Assembly: GCA_013288305.1 (NCBI GenBank) | Contig: JABDCD010000003.1 | Location: 11,466 to 58,029 of the forward strand | Source of the DNA: Alphaproteobacteria bacterium | GTDB taxonomy: Bacteria > Pseudomonadota > Alphaproteobacteria > Rickettsiales > SXRF01 | Length of the DNA: 46,564 bases | Direction of reading: 5' to 3' | Part shown: positions 10,975 through 20,764 of the stretch, in pieces | Numbering within the stretch: the first letter of the stretch is position 1 | Layout: each line of letters opens with the position of its first letter | Notes under the pieces: model-generated | Database searches by the model: none | Told to the model about the DNA's origin: nothing | What the model saw: the letters and a program-made list of their open reading frames with translations, nothing else | Made by a program: the position numbers and the translations under genes

Positions 10975-11703
10975 TCACGGCTGATTGACCATCTGCGCGA
11001 AGGCTTCCAGTTCCTGCTGATTCAGGTCGGATACCGCTTCGAATGCCATATTATTTTTGTGCCACGAGACGATGTTAAACCCGCGCCGGGAGATGGTGCG
11101 TATTGGGGAATCCGCTGCCGTGTCCGGGATGATGAACAGATTGATGATGTGTTTATTGCGATGATAAGCGAGTGCCGCAGCGTTCTGATGCCGGATATAA
11201 TCAAGCCGCCCGCCGATCAGCGGATAGCCTTTATCGCTTAGATCAATTACCGGCGGCGAGAAGTCGATCTTGCCGGCAAACCATGGCTTGACCGTATGCT
11301 TATCGGAAGACGCCACATCAGTCAGATGCTGCTCCATCAGCGAGCGTACATGGCTTGATACGACTTCCTCGGTCAGCATATCCTGCGATGATGGTGTAGC
11401 GATATACAGCATCACCGAAGCCGCAAGCGCGGCAGCGGAAATTGCCGGAGCGATCCAACGGCTCGGTGTTTTTTGTTTTGCCTGAGGCATAATGCGCCGT
11501 TGTAATAATTCCGATGCGGGATAATAAGGCGCATTCTGGCGGAGGCCATCACGGAGCGTCTGAAGCTCAGCCAGCTTTGATTTGCAAGCCGGGCACTGTA
11601 CTAAATGCTGGCTCACGCGCAATGCCATCTCCATCTCGAGTTCGTTGTCGAGATAGGGATGTAACCAATCGGCGCAGTCGTTACAGTTCATTTCACTGGT
11701 CAT
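10975..11703 (-). CDS. Zinc-finger anti-sigma factor
   Basis: The 242-residue membrane protein has an N-terminal zinc-binding anti-sigma domain (C7, C10, and H33-x3-C37-x2-C40, the ZAS/zf-HC2 pattern) and a membrane helix at about 83-102. An extracytoplasmic C-terminal domain of about 140 residues follows. Such RsiW/ChrR-like proteins hold an ECF sigma factor at the membrane or release it on redox change. It overlaps the sigma gene by 11 nt, so the two are made together. The Cys/His cluster makes a redox signal plausible, but this is unproven. Confidence 0.9.
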   Translation of the reverse strand: MTSEMNCNDCADWLHPYLDNELEMEMALRVSQHLVQCPACKSKLAELQTLRDGLRQNAPYYPASELLQRRIMPQAKQKTPSRWIAPAISAAALAASVMLYIATPSSQDMLTEEVVSSHVRSLMEQHLTDVASSDKHTVKPWFAGKIDFSPPVIDLSDKGYPLIGGRLDYIRHQNAAALAYHRNKHIINLFIIPDTAADSPIRTISRRGFNIVSWHKNNMAFEAVSDLNQQELEAFAQMVNQP

Positions 11704-12232
11704 TTTTCAGCAATTCCTTCTTCAGCATTTCGCGCCCGCGCGCCAACCGCGACATCACCGTACCAATCGGCACTTCCGTCACACCCGCGATTTCTTTGTA
11801 AGACATCTCTTCCAATTCTTTAAGCACGATAACCTCACGAAATATCGCTGGCAGGGCTTCCAGCCCATTTTGCAATGCCTGTCTGTCCTGCATCCGCTCT
11901 GTCCATTTTTCCGGCGTATCCGTATGTGCCAATGTCGTTTTATCCTTTTCGCTCATTGCAGCTTCGTCATCAATATCCACATAATAACGCTCGCCTGCCG
12001 ATTCTTTGAGCCATGTGTAGCTCTGGTTGCGCACGATGGTTAATAGCCACGCGCGCGCATTGCCATCCAAGAAGCGATGCAGCGATTTAAAGGCGCGCTC
12101 ACAGCTTTCCTGCACAATATCCTGCGCTGCACTGTCACTTCTGGTCAGCCAGCGGGCAAGGTTATGGGCGGCATTCAAATGCGGCAGAATAAGCTGCTCG
12201 AAGCGCCTTGTATCCTCATTATGTGCCTTCAT
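11693..12232 (-). CDS. ECF-type RNA polymerase sigma factor
   Basis: The 179-residue protein has the two sigma-70 regions of an ECF factor. Region 2 carries HNLARWLTRSDSAAQDIVQESCERAFKSLHRF and ARAWLLTIVRNQSY. Region 4 carries LEALPAIFREVIVLKELEEMSYKEIAGVTEVPIGTVMSRLARGREML, the helix-turn-helix that reads the -35 box. It is divergent from the metallophosphoesterase-cupredoxin operon. Both directions carry the same GGAATA-N15-CGGTT promoter, indicating autoregulation and direct control of that operon. Confidence 0.95.
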   Translation of the reverse strand: MKAHNEDTRRFEQLILPHLNAAHNLARWLTRSDSAAQDIVQESCERAFKSLHRFLDGNARAWLLTIVRNQSYTWLKESAGERYYVDIDDEAAMSEKDKTTLAHTDTPEKWTERMQDRQALQNGLEALPAIFREVIVLKELEEMSYKEIAGVTEVPIGTVMSRLARGREMLKKELLKNDQ

Positions 12233-12238
12233 TACTCT

Positions 12239-12265
12239 AAACCGCTCTCCGCCTCGATTTATTCC
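12239..12265 (-). promoter_or_regulatory. Putative ECF promoter of the sigma/anti-sigma operon
   Basis: On the minus strand GGAATA (12265-12260), a 15-nt spacer and CGGTTT (12244-12239) lie just upstream of the sigma ATG at 12232. Boxes and spacing match the divergent promoter at 12292-12318. The short leader would be about leaderless to a few nucleotides. Confidence 0.65.
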
Positions 12266-12291
12266 CGCTTAAAAATATTTTTGTTTGCCCG

Positions 12292-12318
12292 GGAATAAAA
12301 CCTCTAACTCGCCGGTTA
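12292..12318 (+). promoter_or_regulatory. Putative ECF promoter of the phosphoesterase-cupredoxin operon
   Basis: GGAATA (12292-12297), a 15-nt spacer and CGGTTA (12313-12318) lie 39 nt upstream of the ATG at 12357. GGAA-type -35 and CGGTT-type -10 boxes are typical of ECF sigma factors. The same pair occurs on the opposite strand ahead of the sigma gene. Confidence 0.7.
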
Positions 12319-12356
12319 TATACCGTGAGTCGCGTAACAAGTAAATGGAGGAATTT

Positions 12357-13316
12357 ATGGAAAATAAGTCTGATCAGAAGGTTATTGACCTAGGAAATCA
12401 AAGCCGCCGGGATTTCCTTAAATGCTCGGCCTGGGCAGGTGCGGGCGTGCTGTGGATGCTGTCTGGAGGAATCCCCAAAGCTTTTGCGCTTGATGGCACC
12501 AGCAAGATACCGGATGCCGAGACGTTGGCTCAGAGCTTCCATTTCGTGCAGATCAGCGACAGCCATATCGGCTTTAATAAAGAAGCCAATCCCGATCCAA
12601 TAAAAACACTGCACGAAGCCATCGACAGGGTCAATGCGCTGCCTAAACCGTCATTGATCCTGCATACCGGCGATATCACGCACCTTTCCAAACCGGAGCA
12701 ATTCGATACGGCGGCGGAGATTTTCCAAAGCCTGCCCGCACAGGTGCATTATGTGCCGGGTGAGCACGACACGCTCGACGAAGGCATGGGCAAGCTATTC
12801 CTTGAACGCTATGGCAAAGGCACCAAAGGGAGCGGTTGGTATAGTTTCGACGATCATGGCGTGCATTTTATCGCACTCATCAATGTGCTTAACTTCAAAG
12901 ACGGCAGCATGACCAGCCTCGGCGATGAACAACTCAAATGGCTGGCCGATGATTTGCGTAGCGTCAGTAAGAGCACGCCGATTGTAGTCTTCGCGCATAT
13001 TCCGCTGTGGACGATCTATGAACCCTGGGGCTGGGGTACTGCCGATGGCGCACAAGCGATTGCGCTCTTACGCGATTATGGTTCAGTGACGGTACTCAAC
13101 GGCCATATCCATCAGGTGATTCAAAAGGTGGAAGGTAACATTACTTTCCATACCGCTCGCGGAACAGCCTATCCGCAGCCCGCACCTGGCTCTGCGCCAG
13201 CACCAGGCCCCATGAAAGTACCCGCAGAACAGCTACGCAGCTATCTGGGCATTACCGATGTCAAGACCGTGCAAGGCGATCACGCGCTGGCGCTGATCGA
13301 TACAACTTTAGTTTAG
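12357..13316 (+). CDS. Tat-exported metallophosphoesterase
   Basis: The 319-residue calcineurin-like phosphoesterase has a twin-arginine signal (QSRRDFLKCSAWAGAGVLW) and the metal-binding motifs QISDSHIG, LHTGDITHL, GEHD, VFAHIPLW and NGHIHQ in order. The fold uses two metals to hydrolyse phosphate esters; the substrate is unknown and exported CpdA/Icc relatives vary. The ATG at 12357 follows GGAGG by 5 nt, whereas the in-frame ATG at 12345 overlaps that site. It is co-transcribed with the cupredoxin 11 nt downstream. Confidence 0.9.
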   Translation: MENKSDQKVIDLGNQSRRDFLKCSAWAGAGVLWMLSGGIPKAFALDGTSKIPDAETLAQSFHFVQISDSHIGFNKEANPDPIKTLHEAIDRVNALPKPSLILHTGDITHLSKPEQFDTAAEIFQSLPAQVHYVPGEHDTLDEGMGKLFLERYGKGTKGSGWYSFDDHGVHFIALINVLNFKDGSMTSLGDEQLKWLADDLRSVSKSTPIVVFAHIPLWTIYEPWGWGTADGAQAIALLRDYGSVTVLNGHIHQVIQKVEGNITFHTARGTAYPQPAPGSAPAPGPMKVPAEQLRSYLGITDVKTVQGDHALALIDTTLV

Positions 13317-13327
13317 AGGAGGCATTT

Positions 13328-13651
13328 ATGAAAAAATTACTCGCGATGGCACTCATCGGTGTTTTATCGGCATCAGCTGCTTGGGCAGAGGACATGCAGG
13401 TTGGCATCAAGGATCACGCCTTCACACCAGCTGAACTCACAATCAGCACCGGTACAAAAGTAACCTGGACAAATCACGACCAAGACCCGCATACCGTTGT
13501 ACAGCGCGGTGCGCCATCCGGTTTCCATTCCAGCGCGCTCGATACCAATGACAGCTATTCCTACACCTTCACCACGCCAGGAACTTATACTTATTTCTGC
13601 ACTCTACACCCGGCGATGGTAGGTAAAATCACCGTTACCGCAGGGAAGTAA
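13328..13651 (+). CDS. Periplasmic cupredoxin (amicyanin/plastocyanin-like)
   Basis: The 107-residue protein has a signal peptide of about 20 residues (ASAAWA|ED) and one type 1 copper domain. The four ligands are visible as H55 (DPHTVV), C91, H94 and M97 in FCTLHPAM. It is a small soluble electron carrier. An AGGAGG site precedes the ATG. Pairing with a Tat phosphoesterase under an ECF sigma factor recalls redox or envelope-stress regulons; the electron partner is unknown. Confidence 0.93.
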   Translation: MKKLLAMALIGVLSASAAWAEDMQVGIKDHAFTPAELTISTGTKVTWTNHDQDPHTVVQRGAPSGFHSSALDTNDSYSYTFTTPGTYTYFCTLHPAMVGKITVTAGK

Positions 13652-14811: not shown

Positions 14812-15681
14812 TCAAAGAGATGAGAGGCTGTTTACCAATGCATCAATGCAGGGTTTGCGTGCGCTGGTTTTGCGCCAGACGAGACCGATGCTGCGCGAAG
14901 GTGCAGGTTTGGCAAAGGGAATATAAACAATACCATCGCTCTTTTGCATGGCCATTTTAGGAATCAACGTGATACCAACGCCGGAGGCTACCATGTGGCG
15001 CAACGTTTCAAGGCTAGTAGCACGAAACTCCTGATTTTCCGTCGCACCGGTCATACTGCATACTTCCAGCGCCTGGGCGCGCAGGCAATGTCCGTCTTCG
15101 AGTAATAATAATTGCTCATGGGCGATATCAGATTGCCGGATGCTTTTGCGTTTTGCCAAGGGATGATTGGGCGGTACGGCCAGAAGAAACGAATCATCGA
15201 ACAGCGGCATGGTTTCGAGTTCATCCTCATCGATAGGCAAGGCCAGCAGCGCCGCATCAAGCGGCCCGGCTATTATCCTTTCCAGCAATGATTTGGTTTT
15301 TTCCTCTATCAATAGCAGTTTCAATTTAGGCAGTTTTTTACGGATAGCTGGCACGGCCAGCGGCAGAAAATAAGGAGCAAGCGTCGGAAATGCACCTAGC
15401 CGGAAATTGCCTGCATAAGGGTCTTGAGCGGTTTTCGCTACAGCCTTTATTTCCCCAGATTCGTGCAAGATACGCCGAGCGCGCTGTACGATTTCCTCAC
15501 CCACCGGCGTAACCATCACGTGCTTGTTGGTGCGCTCGAATAACTGAACGCCGAGCGTTTCCTCTAGCTTCTTAAGCTGCATAGAAAGTGTAGGCTGGCT
15601 CGTATTACACGCTCGTGCTGCCTTCCCGAAATGCCGGTGATCTGCCACCGCTGCCAGATATTGTAAATCGCGTAAATTCAT
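14812..15681 (-). CDS. oxyR: Hydrogen-peroxide-sensing LysR regulator OxyR
   Basis: The 289-residue LysR protein has an N-terminal helix-turn-helix (LRDLQYLAAVADHRHFGKAARACNTSQPTLSMQLKKLEE). The redox cysteine pair is present in HCLRAQALEVC, at OxyR spacing (equivalent to C199/C208 of the E. coli protein). Peroxide forms a disulfide that switches OxyR to an activator. It is divergent from the microprotein-ahpC-ahpD operon, with an almost perfect OxyR site between them. Confidence 0.95.
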   Translation of the reverse strand: MNLRDLQYLAAVADHRHFGKAARACNTSQPTLSMQLKKLEETLGVQLFERTNKHVMVTPVGEEIVQRARRILHESGEIKAVAKTAQDPYAGNFRLGAFPTLAPYFLPLAVPAIRKKLPKLKLLLIEEKTKSLLERIIAGPLDAALLALPIDEDELETMPLFDDSFLLAVPPNHPLAKRKSIRQSDIAHEQLLLLEDGHCLRAQALEVCSMTGATENQEFRATSLETLRHMVASGVGITLIPKMAMQKSDGIVYIPFAKPAPSRSIGLVWRKTSARKPCIDALVNSLSSL

Positions 15682-15694
15682 AGCGTTTCCTATA

Positions 15695-15731
15695 ATAGAT
15701 ATTATCTATTAATATCATAAAATCATTCGAT
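15695..15731. promoter_or_regulatory. OxyR binding site
   Basis: The first half (15695-15709) reads ATAGATATTATCTAT, a full match to the ATAG-N7-CTAT element including the inner T and A. After a 7-nt gap, the second half (15717-15731) reads ATAA-N7-CGAT, a weaker match in register. It lies between oxyR and the ahp operon, so it may serve both. Confidence 0.8.
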
Positions 15732-15787: not shown

Positions 15788-15934
15788 ATGACCAGCAACG
15801 ACCCAGAATTCATCAAATGCGCTATGGATGCGTTGGAAGAAGGCATAAAGGCGCAGGAAATAAAGGAAGAATGTGCCTGTCGTCTCGGCCAGCCATTGCA
15901 AGAAGAAACCCATAACCCCAAACCAAAGGAGTAA
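15788..15934 (+). CDS. Microprotein upstream of ahpC (paralogue of 18299-18469)
   Basis: This 48-residue protein begins MTSNDPEFIKCAMDALEEG and contains AQEIKEECACRLGQP. GGAGG lies 5 nt before the ATG at 15788; the frame open from 15731 has no such site. It is 4 nt from ahpC and therefore co-translated with it under OxyR control. It shares the pattern [NS]-D-x-E-x-I-K-x-x-M-[DE]-A-[IL]-[DE]-E-G-...-Q-[DE]-I-[RK] with the 56-residue protein at 18299. It carries three cysteines that the paralogue lacks. Function unknown. Confidence 0.75.
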   Translation: MTSNDPEFIKCAMDALEEGIKAQEIKEECACRLGQPLQEETHNPKPKE

Positions 15935-15938
15935 TGTT

Positions 15939-16502
15939 ATGTTAGGCGTAGGCGACAAATTTCCCACATTTAATGTCAAGGCAACGGCTTCCTTGCTGCT
16001 CAAGGACATTACCATCGATAATGTATTCATCGATGTGAATAACCAAAGCTATAAGAATAAATGGCTTGTTGTATTTTTCTACCCGAAGGATTTCACCTTC
16101 GTCTGCCCGACCGAAATCGCTGCATTTGGTGAATTGAACGGCGAATTCAAAGACCGGGATGCGCAGCTGCTCGGCGGCTCGACCGACAGTGAATTCGTGC
16201 ATTGGGCATGGCGCAAGCACCAGGATGAGCTGCGTGATCTGCCGTTCCCCCTCCTGGCGGACGTTAAGCGCGAGCTGACCGGTGCGCTAGGCATCCTTGA
16301 CAAAAATGAAGGCGTGGCACAGCGCGCGACTTATATTGTCGATCCGGACGGCATTATCCGCTTTGCGATGGTGACTGACCTGAACGTAGGCCGCAACCCG
16401 AAGGAAGTGCTGCGCGTGCTCGATGCGCTACAGACCGACGAACTCTGCCCCTGCAACTGGAAAAAGGGCGACGAAACCATCGATCTTCACAAAGCCGCAT
16501 AA
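15939..16502 (+). CDS. ahpC: Alkyl hydroperoxide reductase AhpC (2-Cys peroxiredoxin)
   Basis: The 187-residue peroxiredoxin has the peroxidatic C56 in FYPKDFTFVCPTEI and C170/C172 in DELCPCNWKKGDETI. The latter C-x-C arrangement is known from AhpC proteins reduced by AhpD, not AhpF. It reduces peroxides and peroxynitrite in the cytoplasm. The ATG at 15939 follows AAAGGA; the frame from 15873 adds sequence overlapping the microprotein gene. ahpD follows after 9 nt. Confidence 0.97.
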   Translation: MLGVGDKFPTFNVKATASLLLKDITIDNVFIDVNNQSYKNKWLVVFFYPKDFTFVCPTEIAAFGELNGEFKDRDAQLLGGSTDSEFVHWAWRKHQDELRDLPFPLLADVKRELTGALGILDKNEGVAQRATYIVDPDGIIRFAMVTDLNVGRNPKEVLRVLDALQTDELCPCNWKKGDETIDLHKAA

Positions 16503-16511
16503 GGAGGGATT

Positions 16512-17069
16512 ATGTCTATCCAGAAATTGAAAGATAACTTTGGCGAACATGCCAAGGACATCAAGCTGAACCTCGGCAGCGTGCTGACCGAGGAAGGCGC
16601 GCCGGATTTAAAGCAGAACCAGATTTTAGGCATTGCGCTGGCCTCGGCCTACGCCACGAAAAGCGCGGCGGTCGTCTCTGCAGTGCTTCATGAAGCATCG
16701 ACACTTTCGGCGGAGGAGATCCACGCCGCCAAAGCCGCCGCGACCATCATGGCGATGAACAACATCTATTACCGCTTCAACCATCTGGTCAGCGATAAAG
16801 AGTTCAGCAAGATGCCGGCGAAATTACGCATGAACATCATCGGCGCACCCGGCATAGCCAAGGCGGATTTCGAGCTGATGAGCCTGGCTGTGTCAGCCAT
16901 CAACGGCTGCGGCATGTGCATGGACGCGCATGTGCATGAGGTGGTAAAAGTGGGCGTTTCTAAAACCGGTGTACAGTCGGCCATCCGTATTGCCGCTGTT
17001 ATTAATGCTGCGGCACAGGCGATCACCATAAGCGATATAGAGCATCAAGCCACTCAAATGACGGCATAA
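16512..17069 (+). CDS. ahpD: Alkyl hydroperoxidase AhpD
   Basis: The 185-residue all-helical protein of the carboxymuconolactone-decarboxylase fold has E121 and the C133-G-M-C136-x-x-x-H140 active site (NGCGMCMDAH). This matches the E118/C130/C133/H137 proton-relay set of mycobacterial AhpD. It regenerates AhpC using lipoyl-protein electrons. AGGAGG precedes the ATG. The order oxyR / microprotein-ahpC-ahpD makes a self-contained peroxide response module. Confidence 0.97.
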   Translation: MSIQKLKDNFGEHAKDIKLNLGSVLTEEGAPDLKQNQILGIALASAYATKSAAVVSAVLHEASTLSAEEIHAAKAAATIMAMNNIYYRFNHLVSDKEFSKMPAKLRMNIIGAPGIAKADFELMSLAVSAINGCGMCMDAHVHEVVKVGVSKTGVQSAIRIAAVINAAAQAITISDIEHQATQMTA

Positions 17070-17119
17070 TTATATGAATGCAGCATTATCAATAGGATAG
17101 ATCATCAATTTTCCTCTTG

Positions 17120-17132
17120 ACTGACCGGTCAA
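17120..17132. promoter_or_regulatory. TetR operator, copy 1
   Basis: ACTGACCGGTCAA, with the GACCGGTC palindrome at 17123-17130, lies 40 nt upstream of the tetR ATG. The identical 13-nt string recurs at 17883-17895 ahead of the microprotein operon. Palindromes around GACCGGTC are typical TetR-family operators. Confidence 0.75.
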
Positions 17133-17171
17133 TTTATGAGATAATAACTTCAAGCTGATAAGAGGTATTAT

Positions 17172-17807
17172 ATGAGCACGATTAAACAGAAAGCCACACA
17201 GGATACCAAACAGATTCTGATCGATACAGCATCTGATTTGATCTGGAAAAATAGCTACGGCGCAGTCAGTGTCGATGATATTTGCAAGGCTGCTAATGTA
17301 AAGAAGGGTAGCTTCTATCACTTCTTTCCGTCGAAAGTTGATCTGGCCATTGCGGCATTAGAAGAGTTTTATCAAAGCAAAAAAGAGGCGTATGATCGGA
17401 TATTCTCTCCACAGACGCCATCAATTAAGCGCTTTGAGCAAATGGCTGATTTTGTAGTCGAACTTCAGGAACAGGCTGCCGCCAGGCACGGTAGGGTATG
17501 TGGTTGTCCACACGCTGCTCTTGGCTCTGAAATGGCCGGGCAGGAAGATGCCATCCGCCAGAAACTCGATGATATTACCAAACGGTCTGAACGCTATTAC
17601 GAGAGCGGCATACGTGATCTGATCGCCGATGGCGTTCTGCCTGCGGATACGGACATCAAGGCCAAGGCACAGGAAGTGTTTACTTATCTGCTGGGACAAC
17701 TGATGTTCGCCCGTATCCAGAATGATATCAATATAATAAAACGCGATTTCAAGCCAGGATTATTGAGAATTTTAGGAGTAACCAAAAAGGCAAACGAGGC
17801 TGCATAA
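17172..17807 (+). CDS. TetR/AcrR-family transcriptional repressor
   Basis: The 211-residue protein has an N-terminal TetR helix-turn-helix (LIDTASDLIWKNSYGAVSVDDICKAANVKKGSFYHFFPSKVDLA). A ligand domain follows with the HGRVCGCPHAALGSEM segment, a cysteine-containing loop found in TetR proteins of the NemR/AcuR-like group that respond to electrophiles; the grouping is by eye. Matching operators precede its own gene and the downstream operon, so it probably represses both. Confidence 0.93.
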   Translation: MSTIKQKATQDTKQILIDTASDLIWKNSYGAVSVDDICKAANVKKGSFYHFFPSKVDLAIAALEEFYQSKKEAYDRIFSPQTPSIKRFEQMADFVVELQEQAAARHGRVCGCPHAALGSEMAGQEDAIRQKLDDITKRSERYYESGIRDLIADGVLPADTDIKAKAQEVFTYLLGQLMFARIQNDINIIKRDFKPGLLRILGVTKKANEAA

Positions 17808-17844
17808 CAAGCATCCGTACTTTTAAGGCATTAGCCAGCGATAC

Positions 17845-17868
17845 AGTCGCAAACATGCGGCTTTTTTT
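17845..17868 (+). terminator. Intrinsic terminator after tetR
   Basis: AGTCGC (17845-17850) pairs with GCGGCT (17857-17862) around a 6-nt loop and is followed by seven Ts (17862-17868). It separates tetR from the microprotein operon, which has its own operator. Confidence 0.6.
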
Positions 17869-17882
17869 AGAATAGGAATTAA

Positions 17883-17895
17883 ACTGACCGGTCAA
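17883..17895. promoter_or_regulatory. TetR operator, copy 2
   Basis: A second exact copy of ACTGACCGGTCAA (palindromic GACCGGTC core), 20 nt upstream of the first microprotein ATG at 17916. It places the operon 17916-20764 under the adjacent TetR. Confidence 0.78.
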
Positions 17896-17915
17896 ATCAT
17901 AGAAGGAGAACTACC

Positions 17916-18077
17916 ATGACACAATTTTTATACAATATCAGAAACGAAATCATTGTGCTCGGTGCCATAGCCATACTTTCTCTGCCCGGCGCAAGCCTTG
18001 TTATTTACAGCCTGTCATCCGCCAGTGACACGCATCCGCACGCAATACAAGTTATTTCCAATACATCATCCCACTGA
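17916..18077 (+). CDS. Single-pass membrane microprotein (53 residues)
   Basis: MTQFLYNIRNEIIVLG starts a 53-residue protein with one hydrophobic stretch at about 12-32 (IIVLGAIAILSLPGASLVIYSL) and a polar C-terminal tail with several His and Ser. GAAGGAG stands 8 nt before the ATG, just after the TetR operator. It is the first gene of the operon. No family recognised. Confidence 0.7.
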   Translation: MTQFLYNIRNEIIVLGAIAILSLPGASLVIYSLSSASDTHPHAIQVISNTSSH

Positions 18078-18090
18078 AAGGAGAAATATT

Positions 18091-18279
18091 ATGCCAAAAC
18101 TTTTTCAAAATATCGGTGAAGTTGTTTGCGGTTCAGAGAGACATGCTCCTCTCAACCGACAATTTATCACCATAGGGAACCAGGTATTTGCCGTTGCTCA
18201 TTCGCGCGCGGAAATGGCCAGGATCATGCGGATGCGTGATCAGAAAGTTGCCGGCTACGTTCTTCAACATCGTATGTAA
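18091..18279 (+). CDS. Basic cytoplasmic microprotein (62 residues)
   Basis: A 62-residue protein beginning MPKLFQNIGEVVCGS and containing RQFITIGNQVFAVAHSRAEMARIMRMRDQKVAGYVLQ. It has no membrane segment and one cysteine, and is rich in Arg and Met. AAAGGAGA precedes the ATG at 18091; the earlier open frame from 17998 overlaps the previous gene and has no ribosome site. Second gene of the TetR operon. No family recognised. Confidence 0.7.
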   Translation: MPKLFQNIGEVVCGSERHAPLNRQFITIGNQVFAVAHSRAEMARIMRMRDQKVAGYVLQHRM

Positions 18280-18298
18280 CTTTATTATGGAGGCTTAT

Positions 18299-18469
18299 AT
18301 GTACAACAACGATCAAGAGATTATTAAATACGTGATGGAAGCCATCGATGAAGGCGTCAGCACGCAGGACATCAGAAAAGAGATCAAACGGCTGGCGGAT
18401 GGGGGAAGTGTAATTGATCCCCTAGCGGATCAATTGAGGGAGCGCATGTTATCGGAAGGAGGACGTTAA
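18299..18469 (+). CDS. Microprotein (56 residues), paralogue of the ahpC-linked microprotein
   Basis: MYNNDQEIIKYVMEAIDEGV followed by STQDIRKEIKRLADGG and a C-terminal DQLRERMLSEGGR. The first 30 residues line up without gaps with the 48-residue protein at 15788. GGAGG precedes the ATG by 5-6 nt. It is charged, predicted helical and soluble. Two copies in two different stress operons of one island suggest a shared adaptor-like role; this is inference. Confidence 0.75.
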   Translation: MYNNDQEIIKYVMEAIDEGVSTQDIRKEIKRLADGGSVIDPLADQLRERMLSEGGR

Positions 18470-18470
18470 T

Positions 18471-18632
18471 ATGAAAACTAAAGGCAAGAAAATAACTATC
18501 ACGCTTGCGTCCTTGCTGCTTGTCGCCACAGTTACCTATGCTACATCTACGCTGGGCGCAGGCGTATTCTGGTCGTCGCTGGCCAGCGGTCTAGTCGGCG
18601 TCATCGGTGGCCATATCAAAAACAACGCTTAA
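18471..18632 (+). CDS. Hydrophobic microprotein (53 residues)
   Basis: MKTKGKKITITLASLLLVAT starts a 53-residue protein with a basic N-terminus and two hydrophobic, Gly/Ser-rich stretches (about 8-24 and 28-47), ending GGHIKNNA. It could be a small inner membrane protein, or the first stretch a signal sequence with cleavage near YATS. GGAAGGAGG precedes the ATG at 18471, which starts 1 nt after the previous stop. No family recognised. Confidence 0.68.
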   Translation: MKTKGKKITITLASLLLVATVTYATSTLGAGVFWSSLASGLVGVIGGHIKNNA

Positions 18633-18649: not shown

Positions 18650-19381
18650 ATGAAGATCGATAATAAAAATATTCTGGTTACTGGTGCAAATCGCGGCATT
18701 GGCGCTGCCATTGTCCGTGAATTGCTGAAACATAAAGTCGGCAAGGTCTACGCCGCCGCGCGCAATGTTAAAAACCTTCCTGATTTTGGCGACAAGCGTG
18801 TTATACCGCTGGCACTCGATATCACGGATTCTAAGCAAGTCGCCGACTTAGCTAAGCAGGCAAAAGACATCAACATACTGATCAATAATGCGGGTACGAT
18901 AGCTTTTGCTTCCATCATCGAAGGCCAGCTGGACCAGATCGCCGCTGATATGAAGGTCAATTATTTTGGCACGATCGGCATGATGCAGGCCTTTGCGCCG
19001 GTGCTGCAGAAGAATGGTCAAGGCATGATTGCCAACGTTATCAGTATTATTGGACTGGCGCCCATGGTATCGGTTGGCGGCTATTCCGCTTCCAAAGCCG
19101 CACTTCATTCCGCCACGCAGTCTGCTCGCACAGAATTAGCGGCTCGCAATATTCATGTCATTGGCATATATCCCGGCCCTATCGATACCGAAATGGCGCG
19201 TGATTTCCCCATTGCGAAAACATCTCCTGCCGTGACCGCACAAGCTATTGTCGCAGGCATCATCGAAGGAAAGGATTATATCTTCCCCGATCCGATGTCA
19301 CAGCAGATGGGCGCGCTGTGGGAACAGAATCCCAAGGCGGTGGAGAAGCAGTTTGCTGCGCCCATGACAGATGCAGCGTAA
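18650..19381 (+). CDS. Short-chain dehydrogenase/reductase
   Basis: The 243-residue classical SDR has the cofactor motif TGANRGIG at 11-18, NNAG at 79-82, a catalytic Ser near 132, Y145 and K149 (GGYSASK), and a PGPIDTEM segment. Members reduce carbonyls or quinones with NAD(P)H; the substrate is unknown. AAAAAGGAG precedes the ATG. It is the first enzyme of the TetR operon, followed by pirin and OsmC genes, which fits electrophile or quinone detoxification. Confidence 0.92.
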   Translation: MKIDNKNILVTGANRGIGAAIVRELLKHKVGKVYAAARNVKNLPDFGDKRVIPLALDITDSKQVADLAKQAKDINILINNAGTIAFASIIEGQLDQIAADMKVNYFGTIGMMQAFAPVLQKNGQGMIANVISIIGLAPMVSVGGYSASKAALHSATQSARTELAARNIHVIGIYPGPIDTEMARDFPIAKTSPAVTAQAIVAGIIEGKDYIFPDPMSQQMGALWEQNPKAVEKQFAAPMTDAA

Positions 19382-19450: not shown

Positions 19451-20344
19451 ATGGGAACGATTGATCTCACCATTACTCCGCGCGATAAGGACTTAGGCGG
19501 CTTTTATGTCAGGCGCATTTTACCCTATGCTCAGCGCCGCATGGTTGGCCCGTTTATCTTTCTCGATCATTTCGGGCCTGTGGAGTTTGCAGTGAACCAC
19601 GGGATCGACGTAAGGCCGCACCCACATATTGGCCTTGCGACAGTCACCTATTTATTCGAAGGCGAGATGTTTCACCGGGATAGCATCGGCTCGGCACAGG
19701 CCATCACTCCCGGTGACGTCAACTGGATGACGGCAGGCCGGGGTATTGCACATTCCGAGCGTACGCCAACTAAGGAGAAAGAAAAGCCGCATCATGCACA
19801 TGGCCTGCAAAGCTGGGTGGCTTTGCCCAAGGAATATGAAGAATGCCTGCCGGAATTTTTTCACCATCCGGAAAATACGCTGCCTGTGTTTGACATCAAA
19901 GGCGTTGCAGTGTGCCTGATCGCTGGGGCTGCCTATGGTTATAAGGCGCCGGTAAAGACCTATAGTCCGCTTTTTTATGCTGCTATAACCATGAACGCCG
20001 GTGATATCCTGGAAATTACCCAGGAGTACCGTGAGCGTGCCTTATACCTGATCGAGGGCGATCTGCGCATTGGCAATGCGCGTATTCTACCGCGCACCAT
20101 GCCAGTATTCGCAGCGGACGAACGCATTATCGTGCAGGCCAGTGCGCCCTCAACGTTTATGCTGCTGGGCGGCGATCCATTATCCGAGCCGCGCTATATC
20201 GACTGGAATTTCGTATCCAGTTCAAAAGAACGGCTGGAGCAGGCCAAACAGGACTGGCTGGAACAGCGCTTTGATAAAATACCGGGCGATGATAAGGAGT
20301 TTATACCCCTGCCGGAGCAGACCAAGCCAGGAACGATTTTATAG
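19451..20344 (+). CDS. Pirin-family protein
   Basis: The 297-residue bicupin has the pirin metal site: H57 and H59 in RPHPHIGLATVTY, H101 and E103 in AHSERT, and the FLDHFGP segment. Bacterial pirins such as YhhW act as quercetinases or bind enzyme partners; some are redox-linked. A 69-nt gap separates it from the SDR gene; OsmC follows after 9 nt. Confidence 0.93.
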   Translation: MGTIDLTITPRDKDLGGFYVRRILPYAQRRMVGPFIFLDHFGPVEFAVNHGIDVRPHPHIGLATVTYLFEGEMFHRDSIGSAQAITPGDVNWMTAGRGIAHSERTPTKEKEKPHHAHGLQSWVALPKEYEECLPEFFHHPENTLPVFDIKGVAVCLIAGAAYGYKAPVKTYSPLFYAAITMNAGDILEITQEYRERALYLIEGDLRIGNARILPRTMPVFAADERIIVQASAPSTFMLLGGDPLSEPRYIDWNFVSSSKERLEQAKQDWLEQRFDKIPGDDKEFIPLPEQTKPGTIL

Positions 20345-20353
20345 GAGAGAGAT

Positions 20354-20764
20354 ATGGCCGGCGAACAAATGATACACGCCTATGTCGCCGAAACCGGTGA
20401 AAGCGTTTTCGCTGTGGATATTGAAGTGTCGGGACACCATATCAAGGGCGATGAACCTATCGAATCCGGTGGCAAAAATCTTGGCCTCGCACCGTATGAT
20501 ACATTGCTGGCAGCATTAGGTGAATGTACGGTAATGACCGTACGTTGGTACGCGCGCCAGCAAAAATGGCCGCTTGATAAAGTTGAGGTCAAACTGACGC
20601 ATCATAAAGAAAACAAACAGGATATCTTCACCAAGGAGATTACGCTGCACGGAAGCACCTTAAGCGAAGAGCAACGTAAAAAGCTCATCGAGATTGCGGC
20701 CAAATGCCCAGTGCAGAGGACATTAGAAGATACACCAACAATCAGCACTCTTGCTGCGAAGTAA
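20354..20764 (+). CDS. OsmC/Ohr-family peroxidase-like protein
   Basis: The 136-residue protein has the two family cysteines, C58 (ALGECTVMTVRWYARQ) and C118 (AAKCPVQRTL). The OsmC/Ohr fold uses such a pair for thiol-dependent reduction of organic hydroperoxides. GGAGAG precedes the ATG. It is the last gene of the TetR operon and the last gene of the island. Confidence 0.92.
   Translation: MAGEQMIHAYVAETGESVFAVDIEVSGHHIKGDEPIESGGKNLGLAPYDTLLAALGECTVMTVRWYARQQKWPLDKVEVKLTHHKENKQDIFTKEITLHGSTLSEEQRKKLIEIAAKCPVQRTLEDTPTISTLAAK

Follow-up and report, generated by a model that had tools for sequence, protein, structure and literature searches.

A Cys...CxC microprotein family encoded ahead of ahpC in OxyR-linked operons of Alphaproteobacteria, with a cysteine-free paralogue in a TetR-SDR operon

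The window analysed here is a stretch of 46,564 nucleotides on contig JABDCD010000003.1 of an alphaproteobacterium of the order Rickettsiales. It encodes a 48-residue protein, microprotein A, which on the evidence of sequence and gene order is a member of an undescribed microprotein family of about 45-75 residues, encoded at the head of ahpC-ahpD operons linked to OxyR. The family is marked by one cysteine followed at some distance by a CxC motif. A second small protein in the window, microprotein B, is related to A in sequence and lies in a TetR-SDR operon.

Microprotein A and the OxyR-ahpC-ahpD operon

The gene of microprotein A (positions 15788-15934, forward strand) is the first of the OxyR operon, and its product contains exactly three cysteines, arranged as C11...C29-A-C31. 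The divergent oxyR gene (14812-15681, reverse strand) encodes a LysR-type regulator (Pfam LysR_substrate, 1.8e-50, and HTH_1), in which the segment GHCLRxQALxxC was read; by comparison with E. coli OxyR, this is presumably the paired-cysteine segment. An OxyR-like tandem site, ATAG-N7-CTAT-N7-ATAA-N7-CGAT (15695-15731, forward strand), agreed with the E. coli-type consensus at 14 of 16 positions, compared with a mean of 9.3 and a best score of 14 in 200 shuffles. A is followed by ahpC (15939-16502, forward strand), encoding a three-cysteine peroxiredoxin with a C-terminal ELCPCNW, and by a gene for an AhpD-like protein of the CMD family carrying CxxCxxxH (16512-17069, forward strand; Pfam CMD, 4.1e-13). 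The locus therefore has the expected composition of an OxyR-ahpC-ahpD operon, with a paired-cysteine OxyR divergent from ahpC and an OxyR-like tandem site between them.

The start codons of both A and B are preceded, at a distance of 5 nt, by GGAGG within a similar leader (ATGGAGG..). Third codon positions had drifted far more than first and second positions when A was compared with its relatives at L036 and L037 and with B, so that both A and B appear to be translated and subject to purifying selection. Between A and its close relatives dN was 0.10-0.18, with dS saturated. For A, purifying selection on the amino-acid sequence, as of a protein-coding gene, was shown by these codon comparisons.

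The AlphaFold2 model of A, built on a shallow alignment of four rows, contained helices at residues 6-18 and 22-32, with a pLDDT of about 90 there, and a low-confidence tail. The prediction for A is thus a hairpin of two helices, with C11 in the first and with C29 and C31 at the end of the second. Given a predicted loop at about residue 20, C11 would be expected to sit opposite C29. Fold searches with this model returned generic helical pairs only (histone, EF-Ts and Sda; E at least 2.5, Z at most 3.5).

Distribution of the Cys...CxC family

Loci were gathered through ahpD, independently of any microprotein sequence, and every ORF in the oxyR-ahpC gap was read; the linkage to AhpC and AhpD in this positional survey is consequently in part by construction. 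Family members were small ORFs between oxyR and ahpC, with an ATG start and a Shine-Dalgarno site, a cysteine at residues 9-12 and a CxC 17-28 residues further on. Eleven carriers were found: 10 of the 36 loci of the window's order in which both oxyR and ahpC were readable, and one (G457) of about 21 in other orders of the class, with the reservation that members may have been overlooked in fragmentary assemblies. With A itself as query, a search of the order recovered a protein 67% identical in G044 and a diverged protein in G042, to which a profile added a member in G140, and all three lie between oxyR and ahpC. When 344 genomes of the order were searched by profile, unconditioned on ahpD, strong matches (E below 1e-20) were confined to oxyR-ahpC loci and B. 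Weaker matches (E 0.005-0.1) were judged to be due to chance, mostly from lying inside longer ORFs; L018 alone was viewed in detail.

The cysteines were the most conserved feature of the family. Ten of the 11 members have exactly three; the aligned column of the first cysteine was kept in all rows but one, and both cysteines of the CxC were kept in all. In shuffled sequences the Cys...CxC pattern arose with a frequency of 0.001-0.009 per protein, values that were not multiplied, the proteins being related. Identity to A fell to about 20% among the members, which formed two subfamilies. These are regarded as one family because a chain of pairwise similarities connects them through G332 and G022 (z of 7-10 for A-G332, about 10 for G332-G022 and about 16 for G022-G329), and because the comparison of their profiles gave an E value of 3.9e-5. 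The profile of the second subfamily recovered every member of that subfamily and added one more.

Outside the order the family appeared to be sparse. The profile of the first subfamily matched only the window's genome among 385 class-wide genomes, and scanning 84,980 named genomes for the pattern returned only two members, both from uncultured Alphaproteobacteria. No family match was present in a plasmid collection, and viral contigs searched with ahpD contained distant AhpD relatives only. Neither Pfam nor NCBIfam has a model of the family, in keeping with the ease with which such tiny genes are missed, and no description of such a protein was found in the open-access literature. Carriers were clustered on the AhpC tree without forming a single clade (7 changes, compared with 10.6 for shuffled labels, and none of 500 shuffles as low). 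As judged from this tree, either a single gain followed by several losses or several gains would fit.

The position of the gene was also conserved. In 10 of the 11 carriers the microprotein starts 91-121 nt from oxyR, downstream of the OxyR-like site; the distance is 198 nt in G332, where the start of oxyR may be set differently. In most genomes without a microprotein ahpC itself starts at a like distance (oxyR-ahpC gaps mostly of 108-152 nt), which suggests that the microprotein gene sits between ahpC and a promoter of fixed position. Each of the other ten loci has an OxyR-like site at the equivalent position, with scores of 11-15 of 16, some of them not above the best of 200 shuffles. As single scores were sometimes no better than the best shuffle, it is the conserved place of these sites that argues for OxyR binding. 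All AhpC partners of the microproteins have a C-terminal CxC.

The same promoter-proximal slot was occupied by other genes in some genomes. A DUF2061 membrane protein was observed there in two genomes of one family (L048:692-922 and L064:536-757), and a Dps-like protein, named by eye from its sequence, in two others (L059:354-824 and L060:294-764). This varied occupancy suggests a swap site for accessory peroxide-defence genes. Separately, a diverged relative of the family without the CxC was noted in G018, a genome without an AhpD match (L161:1501-1659, beginning MKDPDSYALYCALLLQEY...). It does not lie beside ahpC, and has a multi-pass membrane protein and a protein of zinc-ribbon-like type nearby.

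Protein B and the TetR-SDR operon

The initial annotation had described A and B as paralogous microproteins, one in an OxyR and one in a TetR operon, with a shared N-terminal pattern, a GGAGG site before each start and cysteines only in the ahpC-linked copy, and this description stood in full. B (18299-18469, forward strand; 56 residues) contains no cysteine, and the pattern ND-x-E-x-I-K..M-x-A-x-x-EG..Q-x-I is exact and ungapped in both proteins. BLASTP aligned them at 34.3 bits, with 13 of 29 residues identical and 21 of 29 similar. After removal of the start methionine, the A-B score was 72 (z = 13.6), far above the scores of 20,000 shuffles of B, which averaged 20.1 (sd 3.8) and did not exceed 42. 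With B as query, A and B were the top two matches in the window's genome, an incomplete assembly (55% complete); A was found at E 0.0014 and the next matches were longer ORFs at chance level. These alignments indicate that A and B are true homologues, and paralogues. Their nucleotide identity was 0.76, 0.72 and 0.45 at codon positions 1, 2 and 3, with a dN of 0.34 and dS saturated, and by this measure the split between them is old. The model of B, of modest confidence and less confident than that of A, contained an A-like hairpin and a third helix (residues 4-17, 22-33 and 39-53).

B lies among genes which, like its own, are all on the forward strand. The tetR-family gene (17172-17807; Pfam TetR_N 3.2e-13, TetR_C_13 3.7e-10) is preceded by the palindrome TGACCGGTCA (17122-17131), a likely TetR operator, which overlaps a tetR promoter-like site and is conserved before tetR in G036. 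A terminator-like hairpin with a T run (17845-17862) follows tetR, and a second TGACCGGTCA palindrome (17885-17894) precedes the downstream operon. The genes there are m1 (17916-18077), a 53-residue ORF resembling the N-terminus of an RND membrane-fusion protein; m2 (18091-18279), encoding 62 residues and without a Pfam family; B; m3 (18471-18632), encoding 53 residues and of no known family; and a short-chain dehydrogenase or SDR (18650-19381; Pfam adh_short 1.4e-41). A pirin-like gene (19451-20344; the label is that of the initial annotation) and an OsmC-like gene (20354-20764; Pfam OsmC 1.2e-15) follow.

The TetR-SDR operon has its closest counterpart in G036, which belongs to a distant family and has no AhpD match. 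Its TetR is 87% identical, both palindromes are present, its m2 and m3 are 58% and 66% identical to those of the window, and a relative of the pirin-like gene adjoins it. The gene order there is tetR-m2-43-residue ORF-m3-SDR, and the 43-residue ORF is unrelated to B. Since this unrelated ORF occupies the slot of B, the gene order suggests that B was acquired locally, from the A family close by. B itself was found only in the window's genome in the profile search of the 344 genomes, and no homologue was found in any other TetR, osmC or pirin operon. Having no cysteine and not adjoining ahpC, B stands outside the Cys...CxC ahpC-linked family, and is inferred to be a lineage-specific, redox-dead derivative of A. 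An apparent shared block of an ECF sigma factor, a metallophosphatase and a cupredoxin was also observed in the window (11693-13651) and in G036 (L134:8267-10986), in rearranged order, as if it were a stress island common to the two families.

In G031, a TetR 75% identical to that of the window precedes an AcrA/AcrB/TolC-like RND pump, and m1 matches the first residues of the 399-residue HlyD/AcrA-like protein of this pump (38% over 47 residues, E 3e-8). On this evidence m1 is probably the remnant of a lost efflux pump gene, rather than a true microprotein gene, and the TetR of the window may once have been an efflux repressor. The proposal that the two copies answer to two oxidant regulators consequently failed for the TetR, for which such a role is not supported by these comparisons. 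Homologues had been anticipated beside ahpC, osmC or pirin genes; they were found beside ahpC, at 11 loci, and beside neither osmC nor pirin. A general role of the pair in both stress pathways is not supported, given the unrelated ORF in G036 and the lack of a B homologue in the TetR, osmC and pirin operons searched. The chaperone or adaptor role which had been put forward for A and B is possible.

Possible role of microprotein A and comparison with known systems

The preferred reading, held tentatively and at somewhat less than an even chance, is that A is a thiol microprotein acting with AhpC and AhpD, as a relay, adaptor or thiol buffer, and that B is a redox-dead copy of its binding module. 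A hairpin bearing a CxC and produced from the same message as ahpC and ahpD is a natural candidate for a relay, adaptor or protector of the AhpD-AhpC exchange. Presumably induced by OxyR, A might cycle between dithiol and disulfide through pairing of C11 with C29, and might link AhpD, or the reductant of AhpD, to the CxC tail of AhpC, either as an adaptor or as a small carrier of electrons; alternatively, it could serve as a sacrificial thiol. B would then have arisen from a copy of A that entered the neighbouring TetR-SDR operon, keeping the hairpin for binding and losing the redox function. A stricter form, in which A is a dedicated third thiol component of AhpC-AhpD, an OxyR-induced hairpin that relays electrons to the AhpC tail or protects it, with B reused as a binding module, is conceivable and considerably less likely. 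Two observations speak against these proposals. Most ahpC-ahpD loci of the order (26 of the 36) have no microprotein, so that A would be dispensable for AhpC and AhpD, and the spacing of 17-28 residues between the cysteines is not what a fixed C11-C29 pairing predicts. In addition, B and the G018 relative indicate that the cysteine triad is not essential to the fold.

The main rival to a thiol relay is metal binding, a doubtful explanation in which the three cysteines form a site for Zn, Cu or Fe(II) and the OxyR response also buffers or delivers metal. The Cys...CxC triad is a plausible three-thiol site, several members (G022, G023, G025 and G457) have added histidines in the linker, and the Dps-like protein that fills the same slot at L059 and L060 belongs to an iron-storage family. 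However, proteins of the window's subfamily contain few histidines (0-1 each), no fourth conserved ligand was seen in the alignment, and the operon of A contains no metal-handling neighbour.

Next comes a SinI-like regulatory hairpin, which is unlikely. Under this explanation the hairpin would bind a regulator or enzyme, the targets being OxyR or AhpC for A and the TetR or SDR of its own operon for B. A regulator gene does adjoin each copy, Sda was listed in both fold searches, and a weak SinI similarity was found in the same register (Pfam 0.053, NCBIfam 0.18, PDB 1b0n_B and 5tmx_A 0.6-0.7), but all of these scores were under curated cut-offs or at the noise level of helical hairpins. The neighbouring regulators belong to the LysR and TetR types, in which no SinR-like hairpin is known, and the conserved feature of the family, the cysteine triad, would be left unexplained. 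Membership of the SinI family (PF08671) was rejected, as B scored 13.7 bits against a curated Pfam cut-off of 31.4 bits and A gave no match. The hairpin predicted for A had no SinI chain among the fold matches listed, which were generic helical pairs at low Z.

The last codons of A, AAG GAG TAA, double as the ahpC ribosome-binding site, so that translation of the two genes is probably coupled. This would suit a translated leader or upstream ORF that regulates ahpC, for example through such coupling, with an unimportant peptide, but that reading is very improbable given the purifying selection on the amino-acid sequence, a distance to ahpC that ranges from 0 to 117 nt among carriers, and the absence of an attenuator-like terminator between A and ahpC and of any Rfam match.

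A conserved three-cysteine microprotein at an OxyR promoter is a concrete candidate for a further small part of AhpC/AhpD systems, and for a role in the reduction of AhpD outside mycobacteria.

Among known systems, A resembles CxC-bearing thiol proteins in general in its CxC and third cysteine, with no sequence relationship found. SinI, which binds SinR and has no known cysteine triad, and Sda, which binds a kinase, are likewise short two-helix hairpins of the size of tiny regulators, SinI with the weak same-register similarity described above. SinI pairs with a SinR-type repressor, none of which lies next to A or B, and the helix pairs of SinI and SinR form a four-helix bundle (PMC3163267). 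The thiol role preferred here for A is best set beside the AhpC/AhpD system of M. tuberculosis, where electrons pass along Lpd-DlaT-AhpD-AhpC and AhpC resolves through its C-terminal Cys174 or Cys176 (PMC12028322). The AhpC of the window is of the same type, with three cysteines and a C-terminal CxC, and an AhpD-like CMD protein is encoded in the ahpC operon, beside an OxyR-like regulator. The pathway as described in M. tuberculosis has no microprotein, whereas some of the genomes compared here have a gene for a Cys...CxC microprotein at the head of the operon.
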